DNA from: Eunapius fragilis
Lineage: Eukaryota; Porifera; Demospongiae; Spongillida; Spongillidae
Direction of reading: 5' to 3'
NCBI GenBank assembly: GCA_963681505.1
Contig: OY811978.1
Span: forward strand, 2,806,248 to 2,870,247
DNA length: 64,000 nucleotides
The notes beneath the pieces were generated by a model, which was given only the letters and a program-made list of their open reading frames with translations, was not told the origin of the DNA and ran no database searches. Both the position numbers and the translations under genes were made by a program. Shown here one piece after another: positions 40,393-61,125 of the stretch; position 1 is the first letter of the stretch; the number at the start of each line of letters is the position of its first letter.

Positions 40393-43300
40393 ATGCTTCT
40401 TAGGGCACTAGCTGGTGCGTTGCTTCTGGTGTTTGTCGCAGGTATATATGTTGTGAGTATTATAGTGCATGCTGTAATGATTTGATGTGCACTGCCAAGG
40501 TATATTGAATCTATCGGTCGCATGGTTCAGACTTCAGACTTCATATATACCTCCGGCTCAACTCCCATGATTTGGTAATAATAACTCATGAAGCGGCTAG
40601 CATTCCGTTGCAGTTAATGATCTGAACAAATCAATAGCTACACGACTCCGGCCGCGGGTACATAAACGGATCCGTTTATGCACCTGGCGGCGAATTTGAA
40701 GCGTTTCAGACGTTTTAGAACTACTAGGTCATTTTTGACTTCATAACCCGATGGAGTGGTGACCATGGGCCATGGCTACGAAAAAATATTGAAACCCAAA
40801 ATCGGTTATGATATACAGAGAAATGGTTGGGACAGATGTAGGAAACCTGTAACTAAAGTGGCGATGTTCGCGGTTGCATGCAATTAAACTGAGATACTAT
40901 GTATATATTGATTTATCATGTAAAATGCAACATTTCTTAATCATAATTTCCATGCAGGTCAGACGATTACTCTGTCACCTACGAATGTTACTGCTGTGGC
41001 AGGGGAGAATGCTACTCTTAACTGCACGTACTCCATAGAAGGAATCGTTGAACTTGCATCACTGATAACTGTTGATGGCCAGTTATCTCCAAGCACAACA
41101 GTCATTTTTCAATATCCCTCTATGACTATCTTCAGCCTGAACAATGTGTCAAGGGAAGACAATGGCAAACAGTTTATTTGTCGGTTAAATTCAGTATATA
41201 ACTATATTCAGTCGGCAGCCACTCTTCTCACAGTCCATTGTAAGTTGAATTATTCCTTGCCATTTTTTGTTTTTGAGAATTTACATGTATGATACACAAA
41301 AGGCAGCACGCATTGAGGGATTAAACGATTGACGCGTGGCATGTGGTATTATATATGCAACTATACAGCTACAAGTGATAAAATTGTCTCTACGAGAAGG
41401 TGTATATAATATACATGTATATAGAAATGATATACTATAATGGTGTAACAAAGAAGGAAACAAGGTTTACTGACCGAAAAGGAAAAATGAAATAGACCTA
41501 TAATAGCACAGTCCTATAGCTTTTTACACCACTATAGCCTTTAATTTGTATTTCTCGTAGTATTACTTGTTTGGTATGCTTCAGTATATCTATTTTATAA
41601 CGTTAAATATATAGAAGAATACCCTGGCTATGAAACTCGTCACGTGATCCATTGAAATTGATACTTGGCGGCAAAGCTATGAAGTTATCTGTTTGGTTGA
41701 AGCTAGGTTAAGCAACCCAAAATAAACTCCTTTATTCTCGCAATACACACAGTTCTACGCATGTAACTTTGCACTTTATAGCAATTGGGGGGAAGAGCAA
41801 ATCCCCGGGCAATGTTGACGTTATCGCGCACATGGCGATTTACAACTAAACGTAGTCTACCGATTGGATGTCATTCATGATATGGAAAAATAAAAATCTA
41901 AGCAACAGGATCCATAGAAACTATGAGTATCCATAGAGTAAGAAGATGTTCAGTCATATATAAACATAATAATATATTAATATTATTATTTATTAATTAC
42001 ATTGTCCCTACAGATCTACACACCGAACCAACCTTCATAGATGAAGAAACAATTAATTTAACTTCATCCCATACCTTCCACCTAAATGTGAGCATTGTTG
42101 CTAATCCACCACCCACCGTCACATGGTACAAGGGAAGCACCCTCCTGACCAGTGGAGCATCATTCTCAGCTGTTGGGGACACTGGTGTGGCATCCCTCTA
42201 TTTTGCATCTCTTACAACTAGTGATGCAGGAGTCTACACTGTGAACATCACTAACCCTGTGGGGTTTGACCTATTTGCAGCCACCTTGAATGTCAATGGT
42301 ATACTTTGTTGTGTCTCCCCATGCACACGCTGCCATTATATTTTTCATATCCAGTCCAACGTAATGCTAGCTTTAACTTGTACATTATTCATGAGATTTG
42401 GTGGCTGTTACTATACTACAACGTTTAATGTGTGTGTATGTGTATGTGTGTGTGTGTGTGTGTATGTGTGTGTGTGTGTCTGTGTGTGTGTGTGTACATT
42501 TATCGATGTATGTGTATTAGGTGCAAGCTCAATAGCAGGTTCAGTCATTGGAGGAGTGATTGGAGGGATCTTGCTGATATTGATTGTGGCCATTAGTGTC
42601 TTCATTGTCCTGTGGAATAGAGGTAAGGTGATTACTGAGAGCCCATAGATCAGTTGCACTTGGATGGCGGAGGTGTCCCTTCCCAGTAGGGTTTGAATGT
42701 ATTGCCATTGTTGAATTATTTTAACTATGTACATGTGACCTTCAGATGCAGTCAGCCATCAGCGATAGTGCTGTGTTGCATAAATTACCCTCTGTCCATT
42801 GTAATTTGCTTGCAGCTCGCCATAGTGATAATGGAATGAAAACCATTTCTACATCACACATAAGCCTCTACATGTATTACTCCAGTTTTGTGAATGCTAT
42901 TTGTAAATAAGTAAAAAGGATGAAACAACTCAGGTCATCAGTTTAAGAATTAAAGCACCATTTTCCTTTGCCTACCTCTACAGGGGGTTTGTCATATGTC
43001 TGACAATAAATTTGGTGTGCATGAAGTTTGTGTTTAAAACATAGCGCAACCCTTATATTTTACACAGCTCATGTGAAAAACAAGATAAGCAAAGAACTGA
43101 AGCTGGAGAGAAATGCAGCATATCTTGTTCTACCTACTGCAGGTATGCGTATATTATAGACATGCTTTAATTTATTATTGTAGTGTTCAATATTAGCTTA
43201 TAATAAACTGCAACACATAGTTGTGTACATTATTGCCAGTTAGAATTAATTTGTTTTTAGTAGGGAGAAATTGACCTTTACATAATTGCAGGAGTCACTG

Positions 43301-43966
43301 ACATGAACCTGAATACAGCTTATGGAATGATGCAAAACACTGATACAGGTACATTGCACTAAAGGAATGATGATGTTAACATTGAGCTCTGTATGCTGTA
43401 CTGGCTGCTGATTCAGAATATTGATTGGTCATTTGAAATAAGACAAATTATTACAGTGGTCAATATTATCATATACTAGACTGCAATCCATAGTTATGCA
43501 CATTGTCAGTTAGAATTTAATAGGGAAAAATTGACCATTGCATATTCAATAATTGCAGGAGTCACTGACATGGAATTGAATACGGCTTATGGAATGATGC
43601 AAAACACCAATAGAGGTACATTGTACTAAAATAATGATGATGTTAACATTGGGCTCTGTATTTTGTACTAGCCGCTGATTCAGAAATATTGATTGGTCAT
43701 TTGCAATAAGACCTATTAATATGATTACACTGTAATCCATAGTTGTGCACATTTTCAGTTAGAATTTATTTGTTTAATAGGGAAAAATTGACCATTGCAT
43801 ATCCAATGCTTGCAGGAGTCACTGACATGGAATTGAATACAGCTTATGGAATGATGCAAAACACCAATAGAGGTACATTGTACTAAAATAATGATGATGT
43901 TAACATTGGGCTCTGTTTGTACTAGCTGATTCAGAATATGAGGTTAGTGATTGGAGAGGAAACTGA
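40393..43966 (+). CDS. Receptor gene 1: two Ig-like domains, TM, modular tyrosine tail (no stalk)
   Basis: Exons are 40393-40441 (signal peptide, MLLRALAGALLLVFVA), 40958-41239 (Ig-like 1, Cys in ATLNCTY and FICRL), 42014-42298 (Ig-like 2, VTWYKGS ... DAGVYTV), 42521-42622 (GSVIGGVIGGILLILIVAIS transmembrane, then WNRG), 43068-43142 (ERNAAYLVL), 43292-43348, 43559-43615 and 43816-43872 (each NTAYGMM), and 43926-43966 (EYEVSDW, stop). Every internal exon is phase 1-1. The total is 334 residues. The second Ig-like domain has Trp and Tyr but lacks the usual cysteine pair. It is probably a cell-surface recognition receptor. YxxM is the known docking motif for PI3K p85 SH2 domains. A possible alternative terminal exon starts at about 42818 (ARHSDNGMK…SLYMYYS, stop). 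Confidence 0.85.
41371..41570. mobile_element. Foldback MITE, family 1 copy 6, degenerate
   Basis: Lies in the intron between the two Ig exons of receptor gene 1. It retains ACAAGTGATAAAATTGTCTC, GAGAAGG, GGTGTAACAAAG, ATAGACCTATAATAGCAC and the right end TATTACTTGT. It is shortened and diverged. Confidence 0.75.
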
Positions 43967-59000: not shown

Positions 59001-61125
59001 TGCCTGTACATATTATATGTTGATGCCATATAGTTCCAGTACGCGGATGTTCAGTAGCTGGTCCAATCATTGGAGGAGTGATTGGAGGGATCATGCTGAC
59101 ATTGATTGTGGTCGCAATTACATTGCTTATATGGAGCAGAGGTAAGTTAATTTTTTGATCTTTTAAACAAGTTTAATAAGTGGTGATAGAAAAAGAAGCT
59201 ACTTGATCAGATGATGTTGTGTTCGGAGGGGAAGAAGGATGAGGATGGTGGGGTAAAAGCTTCATAGTAACGATACTTGTGCATTTAGAACTTAGTCCAC
59301 AGACACCTGATTTATTACTGCTTGTAAACATATTTCGCATCTAAGCAAGTTTTGTCATGTACTTAGAAGCTTATCCAGAAATCACTGCTCTCATAATATG
59401 GCCATACAACCAAACAATGATGTCATCATGGAAATACCTCTGCCATGTTTTTGAAGATGCTGCCAGCTCTGATATCTGTACCCAACCTCTTAGATCCTTT
59501 ATTGCTTGTCCAGAGCAATGATATGTCTGCATTGTTCAGAATAGAATGAGGATATGGTGAGGTACTGTCAGTAATATGTGTGATTGTCTTAGGTCAAAGT
59601 TAATTTTAGCATAGATTTAGATGGTTACAATAAATAATAAAAGCTCAGAAGAGCCATTGGCTCTCACCATGTAGAAGTCTTCCTGTTGAGGTTTGGGCCA
59701 GAGTGATGTCTGTTATGCCATTACAACTTGCTTTCAACTCTGCAGGTTTTTTGTCACTACAGTGTGACAACTTTGATTTAAAATTTTACCATATGTGTTC
59801 ATGCAGTTTGTGTTAAAGACATCTTAAATTATACACAGCTCATAAGAAAAAACTGATAGAACTGAAGCTGGAGAGAAATACAGCATATGATGTGATGCAT
59901 AATGAAGGTATGGTTACAAAGAATTATAAAATTAATTACTACATACCTGCTGTTTTCTAAAAGTCCTTATAATCAAACCCCACAACCATTGTGTTGTGTC
60001 AGTTTAACTAATTAAAATTTCTGGTTTAATTTATTTGTCATTTTAGGACAATAAATATGAGTTACATACAAATTCATACTTAATAATGGAGGATAGATCA
60101 ATAGCTGAGAGACAAGTCTTAAAGGTGACAAGATTGTGGGTAGGTACAACGTATTCAGGCAATTGTTCCAAATAGGTATGACCCGACAAGTATGTATTTG
60201 AAAATCATTGCTACTAAACAGGCTCATATGTTAGACTATTCACTGTGTTGTTGTTATACATAGATATTACAATTCAATTATACATTTACAATTGCCATGT
60301 CAGTAGTCAATTTTTGGTAGGTTCTAAACATTATGCAAACCAGCCTATTGCCTGTGATGTATTCTTATTCAAATACTTGCAGAAGTCCCCAACGTAACAT
60401 TGAACACAGCTTATGAAATGATGCAAAGCCCTTATAAAGGTACATTGCACTATGTATTGCTTAACTGTGCCCCCTAATACAGTTAAGTTACTATGTTTAA
60501 ACATCTTGATTTGGACAATCAATACTGATGTATTACCATGTATAATAGAATGATCAAAAGGTATGAAATTTATTGGCAGTATCCGGGGCTCATTAATATG
60601 AGTTCATTTCTTCTAGTTATTTGGTATACCAATATAAATAATGTTATGCAGAGTTATTATCCTTACAGTTATTACTTTTAGAGTTTCTAAGCAGTCTATT
60701 GTATGTGATCTATGCATATCCAATGCTTGCAGGAGTCACTGACATGGAATTCAATACCGCTTATGGAATGATGCAAAACACCGATAGAGGTACATTGTAC
60801 TAATAATTATAGTAGCTATTTATGGACCCTTATATTACAAACTTAGCTGGGAGCTTATAATTATATGCTTGTTACAGGACAAAAACAAATAACTCACTGC
60901 AGATAGACATTTGATAAAGTATAATTATTGGATAATGTGCATCTTTAGTATCTGCAGATGTCACCAACATGAAAAAGAAAACAGCATATGGAGTAACACA
61001 AAGGTCAGATAAAGGTAAGCTGCACCATTCTAACGAGCTATTATAACAATGTTGGCCTGTATTTTGTACTAGCTGATCCACCATATGAGACCATTGGAAG
61101 ACCTAACATTCAGAAAGTAAAATGA
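56005..61125 (+). CDS. Receptor gene 3: Ig-like domains, short micro-exon stalk, TM, modular tyrosine tail
   Basis: Exons are 56005-56053 (signal, same protein as gene 2), 57167-57427 (Ig-like 1), 57689-57973 (Ig-like 2), stalk micro-exons 58488-58520, 58570-58608, 58712-58750 and 58826-58864, 59040-59141 (TM, GPIIGGVIGGIMLTLIVVAI), 59839-59907 (TAYDVM), 60383-60439 (TAYEMM), 60733-60789 (TAYGMM), 60958-61014 (TAYGVT) and 61073-61125 (PPYETI, stop TGA). The total is 379 residues, all internal phases 1-1. It differs from gene 2 by four fewer stalk micro-exons, a six-base deletion in the first tail exon, and a later stop that adds QKVK. The terminal YETI fits an ITIM-like YxxI/V/L motif. Confidence 0.86.

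Follow-up and report, generated by a model that had tools for sequence, protein, structure and literature searches.

Clustered Ig receptor genes of the sponge Eunapius fragilis with tails assembled from tyrosine cassette exons and a predicted bias towards PI3K docking

What kind of signal can a receptor send when its cytoplasmic tail is divided among short exons that each carry about one tyrosine? The question is raised by three paralogous genes for immunoglobulin (Ig) receptors in the sponge Eunapius fragilis, which span positions 40393-61125 of a 64,000-nucleotide stretch (the window; C8:2806248-2870247, C8 being contig OY811978.1) of a genome of 219 Mb in 24 contigs. A first-pass annotation, made from the letters alone, had placed the three genes and named their tail motifs, and our gene models, rebuilt from the window DNA with splice sites picked by hand from consensus context, bear out both. 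All three genes have open frames and consensus splice sites, and each consists of nine exons: a signal peptide (judged by eye), a V-like Ig domain, an I-set Ig domain, a transmembrane (TM) segment and five tail exons. The models are as follows, the sizes of genes 2 and 3 being given without the stalk exons described below.

40393-43966, + strand: gene 1 (A1), rebuilt gene model, 334 amino acids (aa)
Gene 1, + strand: signal peptide 40393-40441; V-like Ig 40958-41239; I-set 42014-42298; TM 42521-42622
Gene 1 tail, + strand: 43068-43142 (YLVL); 43292-43348, 43559-43615 and 43816-43872 (YGMM in each); terminal 43926-43966 (YEVS, stop)
48800-54215, + strand: gene 2 (A2), rebuilt gene model, 327 aa
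Gene 2, + strand: signal peptide 48800-48848; V-like 49452-49712; I-set 49977-50261; TM 52074-52175
Gene 2 tail, + strand: 53152-53226 (YDVM); 53485-53541 (YGMM); 53827-53883 (YRMM); 54060-54116 (YGVT); terminal 54175-54215 (YEAI, stop)
56005-61125, + strand: gene 3 (A3), rebuilt gene model, 329 aa
Gene 3, + strand: signal peptide 56005-56053; V-like 57167-57427; I-set 57689-57973; TM 59040-59141
Gene 3 tail, + strand: 59839-59907 (YDVM); 60383-60439 (YEMM and an extra Tyr); 60733-60789 (YGMM); 60958-61014 (YGVT); terminal 61073-61125 (YETI, stop)

In genes 1, 2 and 3 the signal peptide exon measures 49 bp, the V-like exon 282, 261 and 261 bp, the I-set exon 285 bp and the TM exon 102 bp; the tail opens with an exon of 75, 75 and 69 bp, continues with three 57-bp cassettes per gene (nine in total) and closes with a terminal exon of 41, 41 and 53 bp that holds the stop. 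Every internal exon is phase 1-1 (21/21, seven per gene), as the annotation had it, a phase that would make skipping of tail exons possible. Its rule of one tyrosine per tail exon holds for 14 of the 15 tail exons and fails for the second cassette of gene 3, which has two; this extra tyrosine is left out of the motif counts, which refer to 15 core tyrosines.

The motif that dominates these tails is YxxM, the p85-type motif already named for them, which accounts for nine of the 15 core tyrosines, three in each gene, against a mean of 0.41-0.46 per tail in shuffled tails (P 0.003-0.005 per gene, values that are not independent, the genes being paralogs). Core tyrosines follow one another at 17, 19, 19 and 13 residues, the extra tyrosine of gene 3 splitting one interval of 19 into 7 and 12, and successive YxxM motifs lie 19 and 19 residues apart in gene 1 and 17 and 19 apart in genes 2 and 3. 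Binding of p85 to tandem phosphotyrosines is described for spacings of 10-30 residues (PMC6937578), and the spacing in the predicted tails is within that range for bivalent binding. The same genome encodes a p85 subunit, on contig C10, whose nSH2 domain matches PI3K regulatory subunit alpha with E 9.1e-40; an iSH2 exon nearby scores 26.9 and 28.1 bits, below the 31.5-bit cut-off, and because the iSH2 search also gave a sub-cut-off match in one of 14 control genomes, the identification is carried by the nSH2 match. An open reading frame (ORF) with SH2 and tyrosine kinase domains, which may be Src-like, lies on contig C9.

The consensus patterns of the other tail motifs considered are [SIVL]xYxx[ILV] for the immunoreceptor tyrosine-based inhibitory motif (ITIM), TxYxx[VI] for the switch motif (ITSM) and two Yxx[LI] 6-12 residues apart for the activation motif (ITAM). 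None of the 15 core tyrosines of the window genes fits the combined ITIM/ITSM pattern [SIVLT]xYxx[ILV], position -2 being Ala before YLVL and Pro before YEAI and YETI; an ITAM is likewise absent from the window genes, and none is possible in any of their tails because each has just one Yxx[LI]. Inhibitory output from the window genes, which the annotation had proposed, is therefore not supported; modular Ig receptors with YxxM motifs, symmetric exons and duplicating cassettes (the last seen in gene 1) are. On its proposal of an early animal, a silicatein stretch had 36 matches in the genome, which cathepsin-type proteases would give as well, and a degenerate pattern of the silicatein active site had none, nor any in the control, a negative of little weight since the pattern could be split by an exon boundary.

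In the ectodomains, the I-set domain passes the Pfam cut-off in all three window proteins; D1 of gene 1, the domain covered by a single-domain scan, reaches the cut-off of the 'ig' model and scores 20.2 bits against V-set, under the cut-off of 26, so that 'V-like' is used here as a loose label. Each protein has two ectodomain cysteines, both in D1, and the I-set domains (42014-42298, 49977-50261 and 57689-57973), having no cysteine, therefore lack the canonical Ig disulphide. The TM segments are rich in GxxxG and hold no internal charged residue of the kind found in adaptor-coupled activating receptors: gene 1 has none, and the single Arg of genes 2 and 3 opens the scanned stretch, at its outer end. 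No sushi domain was matched in the window proteins by the Pfam scan. A receptor tyrosine kinase, or a kinase ending, was considered and rejected, since a scan of the three proteins up to E 1 gave no kinase match and each tail ends in a terminal exon with a stop. Between I-set and TM, candidate Thr-rich stalk micro-exons of 30-39 bp and phase 1-1 can be read in gene 2 (seven) and gene 3 (three or four), whereas gene 1 yielded none in that scan; sited among TG-rich repeats, they were picked from alternatives that overlap, with splice sites and an open frame as the only guides, and are putative.

50822-50854, 51049-51087, 51163-51201, 51305-51343, 51419-51457, 51555-51593 and 51670-51699, + strand: candidate stalk micro-exons of gene 2, Thr/Ser/Pro-rich, phase 1-1
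58488-58520, 58570-58608, 58712-58750 and about 58826-58864 (poor donor, GTTATA), + strand: candidate stalk micro-exons of gene 3

Genes 2 and 3 appear, from their alignment, to be young duplicates. Their introns and flanks are 92.4% identical over 3536 aligned columns with 1868 gap columns, while their exons are 91-98% identical over 978 columns (93.0% for the I-set exon) with six gap columns, all in frame; these figures count columns, not events, and simple repeats and stalk repeats contribute to them. Between the two genes, indels avoid exons. The dN/dS ratios for this pair (0.46 for the V-like exon, 0.80 for I-set, 0.75 for TM) suggest mild constraint at most, and the V-like exon of gene 1 (1.07 against gene 2, 0.87 against gene 3) points to a fast-changing distal Ig domain.

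The three genes belong to a larger cluster, which we read over 380 kb of C8 less 69.4 kb and which, like the stalk exons and the relics in the window, does not figure in the annotation. At 2.63-2.98 Mb it holds four two-Ig ectodomains and 11 copies of a longer ectodomain with Ig-like and FN3-like domains (type B). Genome match counts, which are lower bounds, place the family largely here: the I-set exon gave 27 matches, the four strong ones all on C8; the V-like exon five, one of them on contig C12; the TM exon, searched as DNA, 10, all on C8 at 2.63-2.94 Mb; the first cassette 15, all on C8 at 2.475-2.936 Mb; and the type B ectodomain 15, comprising 11 strong matches (all on C8, 2.630-2.954 Mb), two C8 fragments and two weak matches elsewhere. 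Readable type B copies have up to three Ig-like (D1-D3) and three FN3-like (F1-F3) domains, among which only D3 (Ig_3, 8.5e-11) and F1 (fn3, 2.8e-6) pass Pfam cut-offs; D2 and F2 have matches under the cut-off, to Ig_3 and fn3 respectively, whereas D1 has none at all and F3 none to an FN3 model, and the labels of D1, D2, F2 and F3 are therefore based on where the domains lie and how they resemble one another. Seven of the 11 copies are followed by a related TM exon (B2630, B2645, B2687, B2706, B2878, B2920 and B2931); in B2698 this exon is broken, and the reading covered these eight copies. Stops break B2687 in D1, B2698 in F2 and B2645 behind its YEAM motif.

The type B tails carry a different motif set. 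Seven are readable (B2630, B2687, B2706, B2878 with its extra cassette, B2920, B2931 and B2936), B2687 being counted with its stop in D1 and B2936 without a confirmed ectodomain. Their 17 core tyrosines fit the ITSM consensus TxYxx[V/I] in 10 cases and YxxM in four, three of the latter in the terminal exon (YEAM, YESM); including B2645 and the broken B2698, which were excluded, gives 12/21 and 5/21. Also excluded were the non-core tyrosines of B2687, B2706 and B2931, three relics within the window (all TxYxxV) and relic-like cassettes at C8 2.8735 (Phe for Tyr), 2.8750, 2.9372 and 2.9411 Mb, and the counts do not extend to cassettes at C8 2.475, 2.899, 2.901 and 2.925 Mb or to the tails of B2896, B2903 and B2953. 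ITSM-type motifs thus occur in paralogs elsewhere in the cluster and in the three window relics, and not in genes 1-3: 0/15 against 10/17 (Fisher P 0.0003, to be discounted because paralogs are treated as independent). With type B cassettes more often of the ITSM type, the cluster resembles, as far as motifs can tell, a set of receptors with contrasting outputs.

How such tails grew can be partly read from the DNA. Cassette duplication, which the annotation had allowed for, is seen inside gene 1, where the three YGMM cassettes stand in tandem units, each of which includes a terminal-exon copy as well: behind the first cassette the copy has lost its acceptor AG and has a stop right after the Tyr codon, the copy behind the second retains an acceptor AG but is shifted out of the Tyr motif, and the one behind the third serves as the actual terminal exon. 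Duplication of a 3' unit therefore seems to have made the tail of gene 1 longer. At the Y+3 codon, YxxM cassettes differ from YxxV/I/T cassettes by one or two bases, as in the first cassettes of B2706 (GTG) and B2630 (ATG). Across ectodomain classes, the TM exon of gene 1 has 86-88% identity with its counterparts in B2878 and B2920, against 76-77% with those in genes 2 and 3, and in a FastTree phylogeny its first neighbour is a relic TM (C8 2.873 Mb), followed by B2878 and B2920 (local support 0.81, modest evidence from about 100 bases); a cassette of B2878 and B2920 also resembles the fourth one of genes 2 and 3, at 81% identity. Given these similarities, TM and tail exons may have been exchanged between the classes.

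Taking these observations together, we consider that genes 1-3 probably encode receptors with modular phosphotyrosine docking tails, biased in the window genes to PI3K. They would be type I surface receptors whose tail is a string of docking cassettes with about one site per exon. Ligand binding or clustering would lead to phosphorylation of the tail by a cellular tyrosine kinase, perhaps a Src-like one, and YxxM pairs 17-19 residues apart could then recruit p85 through its tandem SH2 domains, so switching on PI3K. The strength and kind of the output would be set by the number and type of cassettes, and the cassette set could change through tandem duplication, single-base changes at Y+3 and possibly exon skipping. 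The second, longer ectodomain class of the same cluster would sit on a related TM-and-tail system with cassettes more often of the ITSM type. In all this we infer, from gene models and motifs, that the window receptors are expressed, spliced, phosphorylated and bound, and that they have a ligand and a role in recognition. A broader picture can be offered tentatively, as less likely than not: the cluster would be a compact locus for recognition, possibly in an early-branching animal, where a single pool of TM and one-tyrosine cassettes serves both kinds of ectodomain (one with two Ig domains, the other with up to three Ig-like and three FN3-like ones), with opposing outputs (PI3K-type YxxM versus ITSM-type TxYxx[V/I]) set cassette by cassette, mostly via one-base Y+3 changes and tandem duplication, and with exon skipping as a further dial.

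Several observations weigh against this account. The +1 Gly of YGMM is not known to be one of the residues that p85 usually prefers. The YxxM contrast between window and type B tails, 9/15 against 4/17, is not significant (Fisher P 0.07, to be discounted like the ITSM value). Across twelve exon sets pN/pS is 0.18-0.83, mostly 0.44-0.83, and relaxed constraint would give the same. The fourth two-Ig ectodomain (C8 2.975-2.981 Mb) is not an example of the shared tail, because no recognised TM or cassette was found in the 4.6 kb downstream of it, and beyond the window a relic of a gene-1-type first cassette (C8:2873507-2873650) has Phe in place of Tyr. The ITSM branch, for its part, has no shown partner, because a by-eye comparison of 70 SH2 matches with the protein tyrosine phosphatase (PTP) matches listed (of 192) gave no clear same-strand pair and hence identified no SHP-type phosphatase. 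Finally, 12 of the 15 core motifs fit the endocytic pattern YxxPhi, and the tails might mainly serve sorting, with AP-2 mu2 binding YxxPhi unphosphorylated, cassette number setting the rate of internalisation and PI3K docking secondary or absent. CTLA-4, whose YVKM serves AP-2 as well as SH2 proteins, sets a precedent. However, a single motif suffices for AP-2, which has no need of a regular YxxM series 17-19 residues apart, and nine of the 12 YxxPhi motifs have Met at +3, narrower than Phi demands; we regard this explanation as unlikely.

It is very unlikely that these are adhesion proteins or decaying genes of a birth-and-death cluster, their tails conserved merely by recent duplication and conversion. 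Relics and broken copies are indeed common (B2687, B2698, B2645 and the window relics), and genes 2 and 3 are young by the identities given above; against this, all three window genes are open, indels avoid their exons, and the tyrosine is kept in 12 of 12 non-terminal cassettes. The proposal of the first-pass annotation, ITIM-like inhibitory or mixed activating and inhibitory receptors, can point to L or I at +3 in YLVL, YEAI and YETI and to the ITSM-type motifs of the type B tails, but it meets position -2 in the window motifs, the single Yxx[LI] per tail and the lack of an identified SHP-type gene, and appears highly improbable.

Relics and fragments of other family members also lie in the window, listed here.

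45833-46260, - strand: type B relic, TM exon 46150-46260 and first tail cassette 45833-45904 (NTAYGVV, ITSM-type)
46604-47177, + strand: type B relic, third FN3-like piece 46604-46699 and cassette with stop 47112-47177
55206-55244, + strand: partial first-cassette relic behind gene 2
61196-61388, - strand: type B Ig-like fragments D3 (61196-61279) and D2 (61326-61388)
62395-62457, + strand: open first-type cassette behind gene 3 (NTAYGVV)

Just beyond the window, C8:2874962-2875012 holds a relic-like minus-strand AVYGMM cassette, and a death-domain ORF lies just downstream of the type B gene B2706 (C8:2713644-2713985, + strand). Elsewhere in the window, a DHHC palmitoyltransferase-like gene, named from its DHHC motif, lies at about 31.5-38.3 kb and contains minisatellites at 34300-34880, 35090-35560 and 36940-37160 (repeat units by eye); its exon 34970-35060 resembles, by eye, the stretches at about 48400-48520 and 55580-55690 upstream of genes 2 and 3. 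On the minus strand, 12668-13147 is a MULE/ZSWIM RNaseH-like transposase-type ORF and 27907-28656 an ORF with a trichohyalin-plectin-homology domain. On C10, at about 6.98-7.75 Mb, 12 of 13 I-set-exon matches (weak, E 2.6e-4 to 0.004) have a same-strand PTP match about 0.8 kb downstream among the PTP matches listed, which looks like receptor-type tyrosine phosphatases with Ig domains arrayed in tandem.

Parts of this design have precedents. Botryllus FcoR proteins combine a V Ig, a sushi and two C2 Ig domains with ITIM/hemITAM tails, and alternative splicing swaps their tail motifs and varies the exons that separate the Ig/sushi region from TM (PMC12065747). Both systems are clusters of type I Ig receptors whose tails bear tyrosine motifs, whereas the window genes have no sushi match and YxxM tails, and motif-swapping splicing belongs to FcoR, the present case consisting of gene models alone. 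In the Hydractinia Alr family (41 genes) ITIM/ITAM motifs occur on candidates (PMC12065747); against its V-set plus I-set ectodomain, the window proteins show I-set over cut-off in all three and, for D1 of gene 1, V-set below cut-off. The window tails carry neither ITIM nor ITAM. PECAM-1 is likewise an Ig receptor with a multi-exon tail: several exons are spliced to form its cytoplasmic domain, which loses SHP-2 binding when exon 14 is skipped (PMC5664058); it differs in having six Ig domains and two ITIMs, and that source does not present its exons as a repeated cassette. BCAP-type scaffolds share a YxxM series in reach of the tandem SH2 domains of p85 (PMC6937578), but BCAP is an adaptor and not a receptor with cassette exons. 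The ITIM/ITSM tail of G6B-b binds p85 weakly (about 1 uM) beside SHP-2 (0.5 nM) (PMC3501490), and the split between YxxM and ITSM therefore need not be absolute.

Tail motifs on separate exons (PECAM-1) and motif-swapping splicing (Botryllus FcoR) are thus already known; what appears to be new is a repeated series of p85-type cassettes, together with a single cassette pool on which both ectodomain classes of the cluster draw. Searches of open-licence papers turned up none that describes such a receptor, from a sponge or any other invertebrate, with one-tyrosine cassette exons, which is weak evidence of absence. If this reading is true, receptor output would evolve in exon units, one exon being one docking site, and duplication and point changes would alter the number and type of sites, with ectodomains being exchanged meanwhile. 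The origin of activating and inhibitory Ig receptors from a common tail would become testable within one 350-kb cluster, and a PI3K-biased case would be added to the ITIM/ITAM-centred picture of invertebrate recognition receptors.

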